Assembly: GCA_024683495.1 (NCBI GenBank)
Contig: JAIKYF010000143.1
Span: 1 to 36,452 of the forward strand
Source of the DNA: Bacilli bacterium
GTDB lineage: Bacteria; Bacillota_I; Bacilli_A; RFN20; CAG-826
Reading direction: 5' to 3'
Length of the DNA stretch: 36,452 bases
Both the position numbers and the translations under genes were made by a program. Under the pieces are notes generated by a model that was given only the letters and a program-made list of their open reading frames with translations, had not been told where the DNA came from and searched no databases. Below are positions 1 to 7,020 of the stretch, one piece after another (position 1 is the stretch's first letter; every line of letters starts with the position of its first letter).

Positions 1-830
1 TGTGGTTGAACGCTCTTAACTTTGTCATTAAGTTTAATAACAAGTCGTCCACTTTCTTTGTTTTTATAAACGATTCTGCATTTATCAACTTTATACTCTG
101 TAAAATAAACCTCGGCCGCATCTTCAGCAAAGAAAACATCATAAATAGATAGTTCTAAAGATGGGTCTTCAATAAGTTCTAATGTGACTTCGTCTTCTTC
201 CTGCTCGTTGTCATCTTTTTCTAAATGGAACTTAACGAATGGAAATTGAGCATCTTCACAAGTATCGCCATTTGTTTCATTAATGGATGCTTTGTTTTTT
301 CTAACTTCATAGATGTTGCCATTGTATAAAACATGCTGTGGACAATAAACATCATTGTTGAGAGCAAGTGTAGGATCGTCATTAACAACGATTTTAGAAG
401 TTGTTACACCTTCCACCACATAGAAATCATCAATCTTATGAAATGGCATTTCCTTACCATCTACAGCAATCTTGGTGACTTCGATTGGTTCTAGAGTAAC
501 ACCACTATTTTCAAGTGTTTCATACGTTATATCGTTATATACGATGGGGTTTCCATTTAGCTTCTTAGTTAAAACTTTGACAGTCAACCAAGTCGACAAT
601 CTATAGTCATTATTTCTATCAATAACATCGTATTGAGCTTCGATGCTTCTTTTAAGATTTGCAGCTTTTTGAGCCAATCTTAAATAATTGATGAACGGTC
701 TATAGTTAGAAGATATTCTTCCTTTGTTCTTAACACCACTTTCGCCATAAACAGCCTCATAGCAAAGGGCTGAGGACTTATCATCATCAAAGTGTGGAAC
801 AAATGCTTTTTTAACAAATTCTTTTGCCAA
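1..830 (-). CDS. Uncharacterised protein of the AAA+ cassette, partial at window edge
   Basis: An open frame with no stop runs from 830 off the left edge (276 codons visible). I chose the TTG at 830-828 because an AGGAGG lies 9 bases upstream; the in-frame TTG at 839 touches that AGGAGG and is too close. The protein starts MAKEFVKKAFVPHFDDD. It has a basic N-terminal part (residues about 1-75), a middle part rich in short beta-like stretches, and an acidic segment near residue 215 (EKDDNEQEEDE). I see no signal peptide, membrane segment or known motif, and I do not recognise the family. Its start is 14 bases beyond the stop of the AAA+ ATPase gene, so it is almost certainly co-transcribed and probably works with that ATPase as substrate, adaptor or effector (inference). 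Codon use is AT-rich like the rest of the cassette and unlike metG onward. Confidence 0.8.
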   Translation of the reverse strand, partial: MAKEFVKKAFVPHFDDDKSSALCYEAVYGESGVKNKGRISSNYRPFINYLRLAQKAANLKRSIEAQYDVIDRNNDYRLSTWLTVKVLTKKLNGNPIVYNDITYETLENSGVTLEPIEVTKIAVDGKEMPFHKIDDFYVVEGVTTSKIVVNDDPTLALNNDVYCPQHVLYNGNIYEVRKNKASINETNGDTCEDAQFPFVKFHLEKDDNEQEEDEVTLELIEDPSLELSIYDVFFAEDAAEVYFTEYKVDKCRIVYKNKESGRLVIKLNDKVKSVQP

Positions 831-843
831 TTGAGTCAACCTC

Positions 844-2388
844 CTATCCTAACAGCGGGTTGTAGCATTCTGTTTTTAATCTAACAACCGAATCTTCACC
901 TTCAATTTTCTCAACAAATTCATCACCGGCGATACGTGCTCTGTTCTTAGCCCAAAGGCGAAGAGACGTGATCTTTTCAGCCATAATTGTTGATAAAGGT
1001 GTAAGCTTTGCTCTTTCATCGATTATATCACATGTATTTAAGTCACTTCCTTTAGAAAATGCATTAAAAAGCGCGTCGCTTACAAGAGAACCAATTTCAG
1101 CACCTGTAAGACCATTAGTTTTGTCCGCTAATTGATCCAAGTCAAACTTAGTGATGTCTCTATGTTTGTCTCGGATGTGAATTTTGAAGATTTCTTTTCT
1201 TTCTTCTTTAGAAGGAAGGTCAACAAAGAAGATTTCATCAAAGCGGCCTTTTCTTAATAATTCAGGAGGGAGTTGTTCGATGTTATTTGCTGTAGCAACC
1301 ACGAAGACAGGTTCTTTCTTTTCCTGCATCCAAGTTAGCAAACTTCCGAAAACGCGTGAGGCTGTACCTCCATCTGTTCTATCAGAACTGCTTAAGCCTG
1401 ATAACCCTTTTTCGATTTCATCAATCCAGAGTACACATGGAGCGATTGTTGTGGCAACATCAAGAGCTTTTCTCATATTCGCTTCTGATTGTCCCACTAC
1501 TCCACCAAATACTTTGCCTAAATCAAATCTAAGAAGTGGATAATTCCATGCACGTGCAATGCATTTTGCAGTTAAAGATTTGCCACAACCTGGTAAACCA
1601 AGGAGCATAACTCCTTTTGGAGTATCAATGCCAAAGTCTATTGCCTTTTGCGAGAAAGCGTCGCCTCTTAAACGTAGCCAGTTTTTTAGATTATTTAGTC
1701 CACCTACACCATCAAATCCATTTTCTGGGTGATAGTATTCAAGCAATCCGTCTCTCTTAATGACACTTTCCTTTTCGGAAATGAGATATGGAATAACCGA
1801 GTCATCTAAACACCCAAATTTTTGCACTGCTTTAAGGAAAGCTAGATTAATTTCAGTGGTTGTTAATCCTAAAACGCTATTCAAGAGTTCGTCAGTAAGT
1901 TCATACTCGTTACTCTTAAGGTTAGAGTTAATAACAACGCTTTCTGCAATCTTCTTAATAAATGTCTTATTAGGAAGAGGCATATTGAGAACAGGGATTT
2001 CTTTTGAAAGAGCATTAGGAAGACAATTCTCGCTGCTCTCAATAATTAATGTTTTATGAGAAGTTCTTTTCATCTTTGCAATTTCAAAGAGAAGATTCAC
2101 AACATCTGTGTTTGTTAAATAGAAATTGAAGTTTTCTAAAATCAAATAGCAACCCTCTTTATCTTCTTTGAACTTCTTTAACAATTGGATTGGATCTAAG
2201 ATTGGTTCAACATTGCCATCACTATCGACGATGCCGACACTTCTATTCCATCTTTTCCATTTAGTTAAGTTACTACCTGAAATGACGTTGACTGTGCTTT
2301 GGAGTCTTTGCCATTCATAGGTGACAACTTCGATAATTGGTGTTTTGCATTTAAGTAATAATTCTAATTCTTCTTCAAATTTTGCCAT
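844..2388 (-). CDS. AAA+ ATPase, Ycf46-like
   Basis: A 514-residue AAA+ ATPase. The C-terminal half holds a complete ATPase core: Walker A GLPGCGKS at 264-271, Walker B VLWIDE at 319-324, sensor-1 Asn near 368 (VVATANN), and the second region of homology with arginine-finger candidates R379 and R382 (LLRKGRFDE). The N-terminal 210 residues look like a second RecA-like fold without a Walker A. This degenerate-plus-active layout is that of Ycf46-like proteins; there is no HEAGH zinc site, so it is not an FtsH protease. The ATG at 2388 has AGGAGG 8 to 9 bases upstream. It sits second in an operon behind the small GHVG protein and ahead of the unknown gene at 1-830. The likely role is ATP-driven remodelling of a protein or nucleoprotein substrate; the substrate is unknown. 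Fold call is firm, family call good, function open. Confidence 0.9.
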   Translation of the reverse strand: MAKFEEELELLLKCKTPIIEVVTYEWQRLQSTVNVISGSNLTKWKRWNRSVGIVDSDGNVEPILDPIQLLKKFKEDKEGCYLILENFNFYLTNTDVVNLLFEIAKMKRTSHKTLIIESSENCLPNALSKEIPVLNMPLPNKTFIKKIAESVVINSNLKSNEYELTDELLNSVLGLTTTEINLAFLKAVQKFGCLDDSVIPYLISEKESVIKRDGLLEYYHPENGFDGVGGLNNLKNWLRLRGDAFSQKAIDFGIDTPKGVMLLGLPGCGKSLTAKCIARAWNYPLLRFDLGKVFGGVVGQSEANMRKALDVATTIAPCVLWIDEIEKGLSGLSSSDRTDGGTASRVFGSLLTWMQEKKEPVFVVATANNIEQLPPELLRKGRFDEIFFVDLPSKEERKEIFKIHIRDKHRDITKFDLDQLADKTNGLTGAEIGSLVSDALFNAFSKGSDLNTCDIIDERAKLTPLSTIMAEKITSLRLWAKNRARIAGDEFVEKIEGEDSVVRLKTECYNPLLG

Positions 2389-2402
2389 TGCGATTTTCCT
2401 CC

Positions 2403-2837
2403 TTAATAGTTCGTTGATAATTCGTAATTTCTCATCACGTATTGGTAGTCGTTTTTGATGAGCTTATTCTTTTTATTTTTGAAATTAACTTTATTTTTGC
2501 GTTTTTTTTCGCGCAATTCGTAGTCAATTTCATCAGTTTCCATGTACTGAACATCTTCTTCAATTCCTTCGCATACATTCCTTTGCTCTTGAATGTTTTT
2601 GCATTGGAAGTAAGGATTGAAACTCTTATCAATCATTAGAAGAAGATAGGCTTCAAGATCGATTTCTTTAACACTGATAATTGCATGTTTATCATGATGT
2701 TTAACTCTTGGCATCCATCTTGCTTGGTAGGCTGCATCTTTGCCGGATTCGGCTTCGATTGGAACTGTTTTAATAATGCATTTGTGTTGTCCGACGTGTC
2801 CAAACTTAACTGTAACTGCGAAGTATTTTTTTGTCAT
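2403..2837 (-). CDS. Small GHVG / RVKHHDKHAI motif protein of unknown function
   Basis: 144 residues. The ATG at 2837 is preferred over an upstream in-frame ATG at 2882 because a clear AAGGAGA stands 8 to 10 bases before it, and because conserved-looking sequence begins there (MTKKYFAVTVKFGHVG). Visible features are a GHVG turn near residue 13, the stretch RVKHHDKHAI near residues 45-55, then NPYFQC with QEQRNVC around residues 76-90, and a strongly basic C-terminal tail rich in KKxKNK. I recall Bacillota proteins of unknown function with the same GHVG and RVKHH blocks, but I cannot name a family. It is the first gene of the ATPase operon, 14 bases before the ATPase start. The promoter-like 22-bp repeat lies about 70 bases upstream. 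The His and Cys residues could bind metal or nucleic acid; this is speculation. Confidence 0.8.
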   Translation of the reverse strand: MTKKYFAVTVKFGHVGQHKCIIKTVPIEAESGKDAAYQARWMPRVKHHDKHAIISVKEIDLEAYLLLMIDKSFNPYFQCKNIQEQRNVCEGIEEDVQYMETDEIDYELREKKRKNKVNFKNKKNKLIKNDYQYVMRNYELSTNY

Positions 2838-2904
2838 TTTTCTTATCTCCTTTTCGATGTCTTTCACCGTTGACACCAACATATTAAATTAAGGAAATAT
2901 ATGG

Positions 2905-2926
2905 GTGTTATGTACCAGCGGTTCAA
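2905..2926 (-). promoter_or_regulatory. 22-bp repeat, copy 1: promoter/operator of the AAA+ operon
   Basis: On the minus strand this reads TTGAACCGCTGGTACATAAC plus two more bases and is identical over 22 bp to 3543-3564. It begins with a -35-like TTGAAC; a weak AT-rich -10 (CATATA) follows after 17 bases. Inside is an imperfect inverted repeat TGAACC-GCT-GGTACA (5 of 6 pairs), the size expected of a Cro/CI-type operator. It most likely lets one or both adjacent XRE regulators control the operon. Confidence 0.7.
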
Positions 2927-2957
2927 TTCGTAAAAAGATAATAAAAATAGCACATCC

Positions 2958-3188
2958 CTAACGGAACATGCTATCGAGATCAACACCAAGTGCCATCGCG
3001 ATTTTGAGAACGTTTTCTAGTTTTGGAAACTTGATACCATTCTCATAATCATAGATAATCCTTTGGGTTTCATAACCGAGTTCATCGGCTAGCCACTGTC
3101 TGGATTTTCCTTGTTCAGTTCTGATTCTGTAAAGATTCAAACCGAAGTTTTTGATGTTAAGTGTTGTTCTCTTTAAGTTGTTAGTCAT
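2958..3188 (-). CDS. XRE (Cro/CI-type) transcriptional regulator
   Basis: 76 residues, essentially one helix-turn-helix domain (residues about 15-70): LNLYRIRTEQGKSRQWLADE then a recognition region ETQRIIYDYENG and the family-typical ending LKIAMALGVDLDSMF. The ATG at 3188 has a strong AGGAGG 7 to 8 bases upstream. It has its own extended -10 promoter at 3247-3255 and lies between the upstream XRE gene (3262-3498) and the AAA+ operon, all on one strand. DNA binding is clear from the family; the target is inferred to be the 22-bp repeats flanking the pair and perhaps the TACATAAC at 3229-3236. A pair of tiny XRE proteins beside an accessory operon is typical of phage- or element-style switches. 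Confidence 0.88.
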   Translation of the reverse strand: MTNNLKRTTLNIKNFGLNLYRIRTEQGKSRQWLADELGYETQRIIYDYENGIKFPKLENVLKIAMALGVDLDSMFR

Positions 3189-3228
3189 GTTTTTTGTCCT
3201 CCTAATGACGGATTCACTCTGAGGCGTC

Positions 3229-3255
3229 TACATAACTAACAGGCAAATTATAGCA
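3229..3255 (-). promoter_or_regulatory. Extended -10 promoter for the 76-residue XRE gene
   Basis: Minus strand TGC-TATAAT at 3255-3247, with no clear -35. Just downstream, in the leader, TACATAAC (3229-3236, plus strand) repeats in inverted direction an 8-base part of the 22-bp operator-like repeats, so it may be a third, half-site operator. Confidence 0.55.
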
Positions 3256-3261
3256 TACTTA

Positions 3262-3498
3262 CTATCGATTTATCATAGAAGGAACACCAATTAAGTCGTC
3301 TACCTTAACATCAAAGTAGTTGCATAGAGAGAGTACATTAATCAAAGACGGATATGTTTTCTCTTTTTCCCAAGCATTAACACTGGATGTTGATACATGG
3401 AGTTTTTTTGCTAATTCTGATTGCGTCAAATTAGCTGCCAGTCTTAATCGGTGAACGTTTCCCGCTATGATGGTCACATTCAAATTTTTAGTTTCCAT
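3262..3498 (-). CDS. XRE (Cro/CI-type) transcriptional regulator
   Basis: 78 residues from the ATG at 3498. I prefer this over the ATG at 3504 because the AGGTGA stands 7 to 8 bases before 3498 but only about 2 before 3504. The HTH covers residues about 13-66: VHRLRLAANLTQSELAKKLH, recognition helix region STSSVNAWEKEKTYPSL, then LCNYFDVKVDDLIG, the standard XRE ending. It is the first gene of the cassette; copy 2 of the 22-bp repeat is upstream with TTGAAC as -35 and TACTAG as -10 (17-base spacer). Sharing that repeat with the ATPase operon suggests self-repression together with control of the operon (inference). Confidence 0.88.
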   Translation of the reverse strand: METKNLNVTIIAGNVHRLRLAANLTQSELAKKLHVSTSSVNAWEKEKTYPSLINVLSLCNYFDVKVDDLIGVPSMINR

Positions 3499-3542
3499 CA
3501 GCATTCACCTCGCGGCATTATTCTCCAACAAAAAGCTAGTAC

Positions 3543-3564
3543 GTGTTATGTACCAGCGGTTCAA
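3543..3564 (-). promoter_or_regulatory. 22-bp repeat, copy 2: promoter/operator of the first XRE gene
   Basis: Identical over 22 bp to 2905-2926 and in the same orientation, lying about 45 bases upstream of the XRE start at 3498. Minus strand TTGAAC, 17 bases, then TACTAG forms a plausible promoter, and the inverted repeat TGAACC-GCT-GGTACA covers the -35 and spacer. Bases outside the 22 bp differ between copies, which points to a conserved site and not a recent duplication. Confidence 0.7.
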
Positions 3565-3701
3565 AAACACATGTTACCACTAACAACCCTAGATATAGAC
3601 TATCAGTAGGCATAATTACTCAATACATAATTGTATTAAGTAAAAGTTCTATTCATTGGTCATGTCTTTATTAAAAATATGGTTTTTTTTAAAAATAAGT
3701 T

Positions 3702-5069
3702 TTAGTTCTTTAAAATCAAGCCAACGATTGTTTCGACATGAGAAGTTTGAGGGAACAAATCGACCGGCTGAACCTTTTGAATATCATATTCCCTCTTCAA
3801 CGTAATTAAATCTCTCGCCAGGGTTGAGCAATTACACGAAATATAAACTATTCTCCGAGGCTTCAATTTTAAGACCACCGAAAGAAACCTTTCATCGCTG
3901 CCTTTTCTGGGCGGGTCCATAAATAAAACGTCGATTCTTTCGCTCCTTTTAGAGAGTCTATTAATGAATGTTGAAGCATCATCACAATAAACATCGAAAT
4001 TAGTGATCTTGTTAATCTTGGCGTTTTCTTTGGCGTCTTCAACCGCTTCTTTGACTAATTCAACAGAGATGACCTTCCCACAGTATTTGGTCGCGATCAA
4101 TCCAATCGTCCCGGTCCCTGAATAAGCATCAAAGACAACATCATCTTTGCTCATGCACGCATAATCCATCGCGGTTTGATAGAGGATTTCGGTCATTTCT
4201 GAGTTGGTTTGGAAGAAAGATTTGGCGGAAATCATGAAATCCAACCCGCAAAGATTCTCTTTGATATATCCACTTCCATACAAGGTGACGCATTTATCGC
4301 CCAAAATAACGCTTGTTCTCTCGTCGTTGAGGTTTTGGATGAGGGTCGTAACCTCAGGGCATTTCTCTCTAATTTCAGAAATTAGGCGGGATTTGCCTGG
4401 GAAATTTAATCTTGTGGTCACTAAAACCAACATGATATTGCTATATCCTTTAGCGGTTTTGATTAAGGCGTGACGAATAAATCCTTCATGCGAGAATTCA
4501 TTATATGGCTCGACTCCGAGCTTACTCATAATCTCGCATAATGTATTGATTATCTTAACCGCTCGAGGATCTTCGATATGACATTCCTTGATTGGCACAA
4601 TCACGTGGGTCCCGGGGCGATAAAATCCGGTGAAGACGGTGCCGTCGTCACCCTTGCCGAAAGGCATCTGGATTTTATTGCGATATCCATAGGGATTTCT
4701 CATCCCTAACGTGGGCAAAACATCAATATCAAGTTTGGCAATCTTCCTTAGTTGGTCCTTAACGTAATTAGTTTTATGTTTTAACTGGGCCTCGTAGGAA
4801 TATTGCTGGAATTGGCACCCGCCGCAAGCCCTGCAGACCTTGCAGCGAGGTTCGATTCTGTCAGCTGAGATCTTAGTGAGTTTTATAGGTTCGCCGAAAT
4901 ATTGTCCTGCTCTTTTATAGACAATCTTTATCGAACCTTCTTCACCAGGGAACATTCCTTCGACGAAAACGACATTACCAAAAGAATCCCTGCAAACTCC
5001 CTTTCCTTCGTAAGAAAGATCGACACAGGTAACGTCTAATGGGGATTGTAGAGATTCTTGCTTTTTCAT
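3702..5069 (-). CDS. rlmD: 23S rRNA m5U methyltransferase (RlmD/RlmCD, RumA family)
   Basis: 455 residues, normal for the family. It transfers a methyl group from SAM to C5 of a uridine in 23S rRNA; Bacillota members often modify both U747 and U1939. Domains: N-terminal TRAM (residues about 8-66); four Cys suitable for a 4Fe-4S cluster at C76, C82, C85 and C163 (C79 is extra); SAM motif DAYSGTGTIGL at 314-324; DPPRKG at 385-390; catalytic Cys C412 in SCNCST; base-acting Glu in the final SHVET. Its ATG overlaps the metG stop by one base (TAATG), so translation is coupled to metG. Whether it is RlmD or dual-specific RlmCD cannot be told from sequence alone. Confidence 0.95.
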   Translation of the reverse strand: MKKQESLQSPLDVTCVDLSYEGKGVCRDSFGNVVFVEGMFPGEEGSIKIVYKRAGQYFGEPIKLTKISADRIEPRCKVCRACGGCQFQQYSYEAQLKHKTNYVKDQLRKIAKLDIDVLPTLGMRNPYGYRNKIQMPFGKGDDGTVFTGFYRPGTHVIVPIKECHIEDPRAVKIINTLCEIMSKLGVEPYNEFSHEGFIRHALIKTAKGYSNIMLVLVTTRLNFPGKSRLISEIREKCPEVTTLIQNLNDERTSVILGDKCVTLYGSGYIKENLCGLDFMISAKSFFQTNSEMTEILYQTAMDYACMSKDDVVFDAYSGTGTIGLIATKYCGKVISVELVKEAVEDAKENAKINKITNFDVYCDDASTFINRLSKRSERIDVLFMDPPRKGSDERFLSVVLKLKPRRIVYISCNCSTLARDLITLKREYDIQKVQPVDLFPQTSHVETIVGLILKN

Positions 5070-6676
5070 TAGGCAGCAGCCTTCTCCTTTGGAGCGGCCA
5101 TCAACTGCTTGATATATTCGATTTCCACCGTCGCATCTAAACGAGGGAATAATTGCTCGCCTTTAACGACCTTTAAGCCATCTAAGGCTCCGAATCTTTG
5201 AGCGTCTTCGTAATTTCTTAACTCTGGGGTAACTCCGAGTTGATCAAAGATCTTTTCGCTCTTGGTGACGAGGATTGGGCTTAATAAGGTGCCAGCGAGA
5301 TAGATGACCGCGGCTAAATGGGCCATACAGCTTTCAAGAAGCTCTTTCTTCTCGGGATCTTTGGCTAAAGCCCAGGGGGCGCTATCTTCGATGTACTTAT
5401 TGGCTGCGCTGACTAAATCAAAGACGGAAGCATAGGCTTCAGTGACCTTTAATTCATCATTAAGATATTCATATGATTTAACCGTTTTCTCCGCCAATTC
5501 GTGAATATTTTTATCTAAATCATTCAAATCGGCTTTGAAAGAAGGGATAATTCCATCGAAGTATTTATTGATCATCGAAACGGTTCTATTTAAAAGGTTG
5601 CCGAGGTTATTGGCGAGGTCGGCATTAAGTCTTTCGACGAATTGCTCGGGGGTGAATTGACCATCTTGCCCAAAGACAATCTCACGGCAAAGATATAATC
5701 TTACGGCATCGACGCCGAATCTTTCCACTAAAGGTGGGACAGGGATGACATTCCCTTTGGATTTAGACATCTTGCCATCTTTCATCATCATTAAGCCATG
5801 GACGAAAACCCTGCTTGGTTGACGTAAATCCAAAGCTTTCAAGAACATGGGCCAATAGATGGTATGGAATCTTGTGATATCCGCACCAATGACGTGAACG
5901 ATTTCGCAATCTTCATCGAGCCAGAACTTTTTAAAGTTCTCATTGTTTTCTTGGCCATATCCCAAAGCGGTGATGTAGTTAGTTAGAGCGTCGAGCCAAA
6001 CATAGACAACATGGCCCTCGGACTCTTTGACGGGGATACCCCAAGAGAAGGTGGTTCTAGAAACACAAAGGTCATTCAAGCCGGGCTTGATGAAGTTATT
6101 GATCATCTCGGCTTTTCTGCCTTCTGGAGTGATGAATTTGGGGTTTTCATCATAATATTTGACTAAACCGTCAACGTATTTGCTGCATCTAAAGAAATAG
6201 GCGGGTTCTTCTTTTAATTCGACAGGACGTCCGCAATCGGGGCAGACGTGTTCTTCACCAACCTGGGTCTCGGTCCAGAAGGATTCTTCATGAACGCAGT
6301 ACCACCCTTTATAAGAGGAAAGATAGACATCATCTTTAGCGACGAAATCGGAGAAGATTTTCTGAACCGTCTCATAGTGACGGGGTTCTGTGGTTCTGAT
6401 GAAATCGTCATTGGAGATCTTCAAAGTCTCCCAAAGGTTAGTGAACTTCAAGGCGACTTCGTCGACGAATTCTTGAGGAGAAATCCCTTTGGCTTCGGCA
6501 TTCTTTTGAATCTTCTCGCCGTGTTCATCAAGGCCAGTCAAAAAGAAGGTCTCAAAACCTCTTAGTCTTTTTCCTCTCGCAATGATGTCACACATGGTCG
6601 TGCAATAAGCGTGTCCAAGATGTGGAGAAGCGCTTGGATAATAGATGGGTGTAGTGATGTAGAATTTCTTACTCAT
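5069..6676 (-). CDS. metG: Methionyl-tRNA synthetase
   Basis: 535 residues. Charges tRNA-Met with methionine in the cytoplasm. The class I signatures are clear: HIGH as HLGH near residue 19 and KMSKSKGN near residue 304. The zinc region is incomplete: the second knuckle CPDC is present, but the first reads YCVHEESFWTE where many homologues have CxxC, so one Cys is Glu. The C-terminal tRNA-binding OB domain seen in Bacillus MetS (about 660 residues) is absent; the protein ends in an Ala-rich tail. The ATG at 6676 has AGGAGG about 10 bases upstream, and an extended -10 (TGC-TACAAT) lies at 6722-6714. No T-box leader is visible. Downstream rlmD is coupled by a one-base overlap. Confidence 0.97.
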   Translation of the reverse strand: MSKKFYITTPIYYPSASPHLGHAYCTTMCDIIARGKRLRGFETFFLTGLDEHGEKIQKNAEAKGISPQEFVDEVALKFTNLWETLKISNDDFIRTTEPRHYETVQKIFSDFVAKDDVYLSSYKGWYCVHEESFWTETQVGEEHVCPDCGRPVELKEEPAYFFRCSKYVDGLVKYYDENPKFITPEGRKAEMINNFIKPGLNDLCVSRTTFSWGIPVKESEGHVVYVWLDALTNYITALGYGQENNENFKKFWLDEDCEIVHVIGADITRFHTIYWPMFLKALDLRQPSRVFVHGLMMMKDGKMSKSKGNVIPVPPLVERFGVDAVRLYLCREIVFGQDGQFTPEQFVERLNADLANNLGNLLNRTVSMINKYFDGIIPSFKADLNDLDKNIHELAEKTVKSYEYLNDELKVTEAYASVFDLVSAANKYIEDSAPWALAKDPEKKELLESCMAHLAAVIYLAGTLLSPILVTKSEKIFDQLGVTPELRNYEDAQRFGALDGLKVVKGEQLFPRLDATVEIEYIKQLMAAPKEKAAA

Positions 6677-6713
6677 GGCAAATGAAACCTCCTAAAGAAT
6701 CTTCAACCAACGT

Positions 6714-6722
6714 ATTGTAGCA
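6714..6722 (-). promoter_or_regulatory. metG: Extended -10 promoter for metG-rlmD
   Basis: Minus strand TGC-TACAAT about 40 bases upstream of the metG ATG, with no convincing -35. It fits the extended -10 pattern seen at several other genes here. Confidence 0.5.
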
Positions 6723-6856
6723 AATGCAAAGGTAAATTTCTTCTAAAAAGAAGAAAATCCGGGCTTTTTCTTCGTTTTCTCGCCTAAACACAATTTTTCT
6801 TCTTGGGTAAACGCTCAAAAATGAATCTAAATAAAATAACTAACTAAATCAAAATC

Positions 6857-6879
6857 CCGTGCAAAACCCGCATATTTTT
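6857..6879 (+). repeat. Dispersed 22-bp motif, copy A
   Basis: Reads TGCAAAACCCGCATATTTTT in its core and matches the consensus TGCAAAWCCGCRTTATTTT apart from one extra C and one missing T. Other copies are at 21258-21279, 22649-22670 and 31301-31322 (minus). Function unknown. Confidence 0.55.
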
Positions 6880-6979
6880 CAAAATATTGAGGCTTTTTGA
6901 GTATCAATTCGCGATTAAAGACACCTAATATTTGTCCGTCCATTTTATGAAAAATTACGGTGTTTTTGTTCAATTAGGC

Positions 6980-6997
6980 CAAAATCAAATGATTTTG
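6980..6997. promoter_or_regulatory. Perfect inverted repeat upstream of phosphoglucomutase
   Basis: CAAAATCA-AA-TGATTTTG, 8-base arms and a 2-base centre. It sits about 25 bases upstream of the candidate extended -10 of the phosphoglucomutase, where an activator or repressor could bind. No regulator is identified. Confidence 0.5.
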
Positions 6998-7020
6998 TCT
7001 ATATGTAAAACTGCTTGGTG

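Follow-up and report, generated by a model that had tools for sequence, protein, structure and literature searches.

At OR2/PRM, a case of class II activation, the dimer site of lambda CI is centred near -42/-43. The controller (C) proteins of restriction-modification (R-M) systems are described as activating transcription from an upstream high-affinity site, while a weak basal promoter supplies the first protein (PMC3695507; PMC6237814). The site reported for C.Csp231I is CTAAG-n5-CTTAG, and SQE is described as the sigma-contacting residue motif of C proteins (PMC4824078). For HsdC of Mollicutes, binding to GTGTTA-N5 units repeated directly over the -10 is reported, with repression as the inferred effect (PMC5282649).

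The stretch of DNA analysed here (the window, 36,452 nucleotides) is one whole contig (C91 of genome G000) of an incomplete Bacilli genome (84.98%, 172 contigs). Near its left end lies a cassette in which two genes for small XRE-type proteins precede an operon encoding a small conserved protein (named O159 in this report), an AAA+ ATPase and a helicase (Table 1). The neighbour of XRE2-XRE1 on the minus strand is a 455-residue gene at 3702-5069, which we take to encode an RlmD-type rRNA methyltransferase. For O159, the start at 2837 was preferred over that at 2882 because its homologues begin at MTKKYF (alignment of 26 rows, with L191, L197, L199, L203, L205, L206, and L210 excluded). In the intact operon, the ATPase gene is followed by those of a Upf1-like helicase (982 aa in G203; PADLOC best match: MkoA), two proteins of 501 aa and 448 aa with no families, a DUF2997 protein, a protein of 177 residues that fits no clear family, and a radical-SAM protein. 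Among the cassette proteins, Pfam and PADLOC identified an SF1 helicase, DUF2997, and radical SAM besides unknowns, but no endonuclease or methyltransferase. The IetAS defence system was rejected as an identity for the cassette: the ATPase scored 89.5 bits with NCBIfam IteA against a cut-off of 510, and no peptidase was found among the scanned cassette proteins to act as the subtilisin-like partner IetS. Rfam gave no match on window positions 1-7000 up to E 0.1, and narrow literature searches gave no paper about the cassette.

Table 1. Positions of cassette features in the window
Feature	Position	Strand	Description
op1	3543-3564	minus	Palindromic operator before XRE2-XRE1; TTGAACCGCTGGTACATAACAC; conserved in G203, G069, G066
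op2	2905-2926	minus	Identical copy before ORF-AAA-helicase operon; conserved in G203, G069, G086 remnant, G066
XRE2	3262-3504	minus	80 aa HTH_3 protein; reduced in L064/G400 lineage
XRE1	2958-3188	minus	76 aa HTH_3 protein; proposed operator-binding controller
O159	2403-2837	minus	144-residue ORF; listed from 2882
AAA+ ATPase	844-2388	minus	phrog_8638, function unknown
Upf1-like SF1 helicase, N-terminal part	3-839	minus	First 279 codons; contig end cuts rest
Inferred -10 for op1	3520-3525	minus	GAGAAT; offset 30 from operator centre
Inferred -10 for op2	2881-2886	minus	TAATAT; offset 31
Alternative -10 for op2	2883-2888	minus	TTTAAT; offset 29
XRE1's own promoter	3247-3276	minus	TG-N-TATAAT extended -10; no operator
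Terminator-like hairpin in op1	3535-3557	minus	5' arm = right part of op1 (GCTGGTAC...GTACTAGC TTTTTG)
Terminator-like hairpin at XRE1 3' end	2946-2975	minus	Just upstream of op2

The repeat is real, conserved, and probably regulatory. As the sequence-only reading had pointed out, the two copies are identical over 22 bp in the same orientation, and computation places each upstream of a minus-strand transcription unit, op1 before XRE2 and XRE1 and op2 before O159-ATPase-helicase. Dinucleotide shuffles of the window (n = 100) produced zero matches to the repeat; with up to 3 mismatches allowed, the 20-mer TTGAACCGCTGGTACATAAC matches the assembled genome only at op1 and op2, and its reversed-pattern control matches nowhere. 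The inverted repeat TGAACC/GGTACA named in that reading is present, although imperfect, with pairing at 5/6 positions. The octamer TACATAAC is likewise found at 3229-3236 on the plus strand, as had been claimed, but its role as a third site before XRE1 was rejected and looks like chance: G069, the 98% relative, has a disrupted version (GTTATGTG), G066 lacks the octamer, and the chance of an 8-mer from the 22-mer recurring within a few hundred bases is ~0.3 by our estimate.

A family search covering 224 genomes retrieved the ATPase at E <= 1e-40 in 6, the window's own included. Three of the other five carry the same cassette, namely G203 (ATPase 99% identical, same neighbour gene as in the window), G069 (98% identity, located elsewhere), and G066 (75% identity, contig the same as L065), while G142 and G070 (50% identity) have other neighbours. 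Two further cassettes were added, L064 (76%) from GTDB contigs and G400 from a class search. G086 retains a 0.6-kb cassette remnant, and in G231, from another family of the order, nothing but the left end survives, with a mutated op1 and a piece of the neighbour gene's tail. Conservation in orthologous cassettes, the check proposed with the original observation, was found on computation, the site standing before transcription units in 6/6 cassettes and in one remnant. This amounts to 14 sites, 1 to 4 per cassette (G000 2, G203 3, G069 2, G066 4, L064 1, G400 1), including the single site of the G086 remnant. The core palindrome TGAAC-N5-GTTCA has perfect arms in 4/14 (G066 op1, G066 op2, L064, and G400); at G066 op1 the dyad is perfect (TGAACCGCTGGTTCA), and spacers differ in the other G066 sites. 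The left half is nearly invariant (TGAACC in 13 sites, TGAACT in 1) and the right half variable (GGTACA, GGTTCA, GGTGCA, AGTACA, AGTTCA). Between G000 and G069, the 19-bp core agrees at 19/19 positions at both op1 and op2, against 21/59 and 31/46 in the ungapped flanks of op1 and 43/59 and 12/46 in those of op2, where the counts are low because of small indels.

Across the 279 genomes of the order, the 17-base pattern with up to 1 mismatch has 16 matches, as does its reversed control (our count), so the motif by itself is not rare, and what matters is that it clusters ahead of cassette units. Ten of the matches lie on cassettes or on the G086 remnant and one on the G231 remnant; the five elsewhere, which fall within open frames 121 to 522 codons long, were taken as background. 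Two perfect TGAAC-N5-GTTCA sequences were left out, one outside the cassette (L151:13522) and one inside a radical-SAM gene (L190:7214), and by our reading neither has a -10 at offset 30. In the L064/G400 lineage, the operator is found only at the first operon. The ATPase has its own promoter there, without TGAAC-N5-GTTCA, and regulation of the ATPase through this operator is therefore not universal. That promoter (L064:5881-6000 and L238:7349-7464) bears a different dyad, TAAAC-ACA-GTTTA, with TATAAA at offset 30. Among the sites at L151 (reverse strand) 14035 and 15678 and at L149:17595, G203 op3 and G066 op4 reach into the 3' end or stop codon of the gene before them, and G066 op3 forms a hairpin of 13 pairs with a T-run.

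To place the operator relative to the promoter, a self-entered sigma-70 -10 matrix was applied at every offset on the downstream side of the palindrome centre. One representative per promoter unit was used, with G203 op1 and op2, G069 op1 and op2, G086, and G400 excluded; this test did not include the promoter of XRE1 or that of the ATPase in L064/G400. The best mean score occurs at offset 30, and all of the 8 distinct promoter units have a -10-like hexamer 29-31 bases from the centre (e.g., TATCAT, CATCAT, TAAAAT, CATAAT, TAACAT, GACAAT, and GAGAAT; the weakest is GAAACT of G203 op3, 1.6 bits). In the 8 units, the observed score was equalled at any offset by 1, 0, and 0 of 2,000 dinucleotide shuffles with tolerance windows of 1, 2, and 3, respectively; with all 14 sites, 0/2,000 mononucleotide shuffles reached it. 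The mutated left-end remnant of G231, used in neither the spacing nor the terminator test, has TTTGAT at offset 30 by our count. At op2, the conserved -10 coincides in part with the upstream O159 start (2882), and O159 homologues starting at the internal MTKKYF fit a transcript start at ~2874.

A -10 conserved at 29-31 bases puts the operator centre near -43. The match to a -35 element 16-18 bp upstream of the conserved -10s is at most 4/6 in any unit, and a consensus promoter scan gave nothing at op1 and op2. TTGAAC, which the sequence-only reading had placed at the -35 position, does not behave as such an element: at 16-18 bp past it, the hexamers of 8/8 units have poor scores, and it is not strictly kept, being ATGAAC in 3/14 sites (G069 op1, L064, and G400). 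The shared switch predicted there is supported as a shared, conserved regulatory site before both units, but not as a site bound at the -35 and spacer. The position of the operator argues for an activator site rather than a -35/spacer site: an operator centre at about -42, a fixed -10 spacing, and a poor -35 are features of class II activator-dependent promoters. At a spacing of 19 bp from TTGAAC, TATATT or TATAAA occurs in the two O159 promoters only (A2 and B2), which may be basal promoters. XRE1's own TATAAT (TATACT in G069) is operator-free and present in 6/6 cassettes.

In a pattern scan of positions 2380-3720, two computed terminator-like sites were detected versus 0.5 expected, only after XRE1 and inside op1; the latter hairpin would halt read-through from the upstream gene. 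Among 11 contexts, an operator-containing hairpin with a T-run occurs in five (G000 op1, G069 op1, G203 op3, G066 op3, and G066 op4), a modest signal with a Fisher combined value of 0.039 for all 11 and 0.004 for a subset of 8 of our choosing, which omits the op2 sites of G000 and G069 as well as G400 and differs from the 8 units of the spacing test.

XRE1 is a small protein made solely of an XRE-type HTH (HTH_3, E 1.6e-10). Its fold is that of an ordinary XRE domain: SinR, ImmR, and CylR2, which are repressors, stand first in the fold list, above C.AhdI, and C.AhdI, C.BclI, C.Csp231I, and lambda CI-sigma lie within about 2 Z units in that list. By sequence profile, the best solved relative is C.BclI (2b5a, E 3.1e-8), followed among others by C.AhdI (1y7y) and the activator ComR; since MBF1, HigA, and SinR are also listed, the search is not specific. 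XRE1 is intact, and around its recognition helix, R43, Y46, Y48, E49, and G51 are kept in 6/6 rows. XRE2 has its best solved relatives in a PbsX-family regulator and CylR2. Its counterpart in L064 and G400 is a reduced ORF (in L064, 67 residues with no Pfam family) although the operator stays. Judged from these sequences, XRE1 is most likely the protein that binds the operator, while XRE2 could be the binder in the lineage of the window.

On balance, we lean towards a positive-feedback timer in which XRE1 would bind the sites and activate both its own operon and the ATPase-helicase operon. An XRE dimer, most likely of XRE1, would occupy TGAAC-N5-GTTCA near -43, upstream of -10s lacking a conserved -35, and would activate transcription as lambda CI does at OR2. 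The TG-N-TATAAT promoter inside the cassette points to a basal level of XRE1, and accumulation of the protein would then switch on its own operon through op1 and the O159-ATPase-helicase operon through op2; in relatives, further units would be reached via op3 and op4. The outcome would be a delayed, self-reinforcing switch resembling R-M controller proteins, with terminators before op2 and overlapping op1 stopping outside transcription that might bypass it.

Repression, a less probable but serious rival reading, would make the cassette an ordinary autorepressed one, with a dimer of XRE2 or XRE1 (CylR2/RstR-like) blocking RNA polymerase at both promoters. Many small XRE proteins do repress, the solved relatives of XRE2 and the head of the XRE1 fold list agree with such a role, the 19-bp-spaced hexamers of the two O159 promoters could belong to repressible basal promoters, and occupancy of -43 by a dimer might likewise shut off a weak promoter. 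Against these points, no -35 is conserved at the spacing dictated by the conserved -10, TTGAAC is not strictly kept, and the fixed distance from operator centre to -10 is more readily explained by contact with RNA polymerase than by simple occlusion.

That the 22-mer marks the junctions of mobile-element modules, as a recombination or element-end repeat and not a protein operator, appears improbable. Homology of G069 to G000/G203 does begin exactly at op1, L064 and G400 agree from op1 on, the left-end remnant of G231 breaks about 15 bases past its mutated op1, and large serine recombinases sit beside the cassette in G203, G086, and L064; however, the first conserved functional element at a boundary would look alike, op2 is internal to the cassette, following the terminator of XRE1, and the op sequences vary yet stay near-palindromic with the -10 at a fixed distance. 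Least probable is an element acting at the RNA level, in which the repeat would chiefly serve as the 5' arm of intrinsic terminators separating the units. The hairpins with T-runs and their combined Fisher value fit this idea, but they are absent in 6/11 contexts, including op2 of both tested lineages, their 3' arms pair with differing parts of the operator, and the palindrome and -10 spacing would go unexplained.

The activation preferred here has its nearest parallels in the C proteins and C-boxes of R-M systems (C.BclI, C.AhdI, C.PvuII, and C.Csp231I). Like XRE1, these are very small HTH_3-only proteins, and both kinds of system combine a palindrome upstream of the protein's own promoter, an extra basal promoter, and a mobile cassette; the shape CTAAG-n5-CTTAG given for Csp231I resembles TGAAC-N5-GTTCA (PMC4824078). 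In contrast to C systems, the cassette has no endonuclease or methyltransferase among the proteins found, its cargo being an AAA ATPase, an SF1 helicase, and a radical-SAM protein; it also has one palindrome per promoter rather than tandem OL/OR, and a second XRE gene. Both a search with up to 1 mismatch and the alignment of 14 promoters showed no tandem dimer sites, only stray GGTTC half-sites in some, and SQE at the start of helix 2 is not conserved in the XRE1 lineages (SRQ, TRE, TYE, and SKF). In view of the lack of an R-M gene, of a tandem site, and of a kept SQE, XRE1 was not filed as a C protein. With lambda CI at OR2/PRM, the cassette shares the site position and a weak or absent -35, but it has a single site at each of several promoters, where activation is a proposal. 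HsdC is alike in being a C-protein homologue of genome-reduced bacteria with an accessory operon and a second weak promoter inside the cassette, and is described as differing in its direct repeats over the -10, inferred repression, and type I R-M cargo (PMC5282649).

The cassette of G000 and G203 adjoins the 3' end of the neighbour gene (window:3262-5069; L149; L240:1322-1536), which looks like an integration site; this gene is presumably rlmD. G231 shares the left end together with the tail of the neighbour gene, and unrelated DNA follows. Serine recombinases (Resolvase, Recombinase, Zn_ribbon) adjoin the cassette or remnant at L231:3516-5279 (G203) and L184:10698-12431 (G086), and those of L064 lie at 1927-3234 and 3218-4816. 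Relatives of the ATPase occur at 29-46% identity in viral contigs and under 60% in phages. A phage origin was rejected: in searches there, 45 stretches from the O159 alignment and 164 from the helicase alignment yielded none confirmed, and the exact 19-mer was present in 0 contigs.

The small protein with the GHVG...RVKHH signature (O159) is found in 30/279 genomes of the order and belongs to a widespread uncharacterised family. The operator is not general to its homologues, most of which stand in other contexts without the palindrome. Members of the family also turn up in a different type of cassette, alongside an NrdD-like protein, a radical SAM activase, a nucleoside kinase, a phosphoesterase, and an LRR-DNA methylase fusion. 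A fold similarity to ribosomal L20A/LX was dismissed as weak and uninformative (Foldseek E 0.12; VIA Z 6.3, 66 residues, 2.6 A).

Tentatively, a C-protein-like timer might have been recruited to a mobile cassette outside R-M, driving up to four units from single-dimer sites at -43, some of which would double as the 5' arm of an insulating terminator. The site and its spacing provide a motif for finding further units of such cassettes. If the proposed activation is right, controller-protein timing would extend beyond restriction-modification to an uncharacterised ATPase-helicase cassette, which would suggest that the cargo must be held back on entering a new host until something else is ready.
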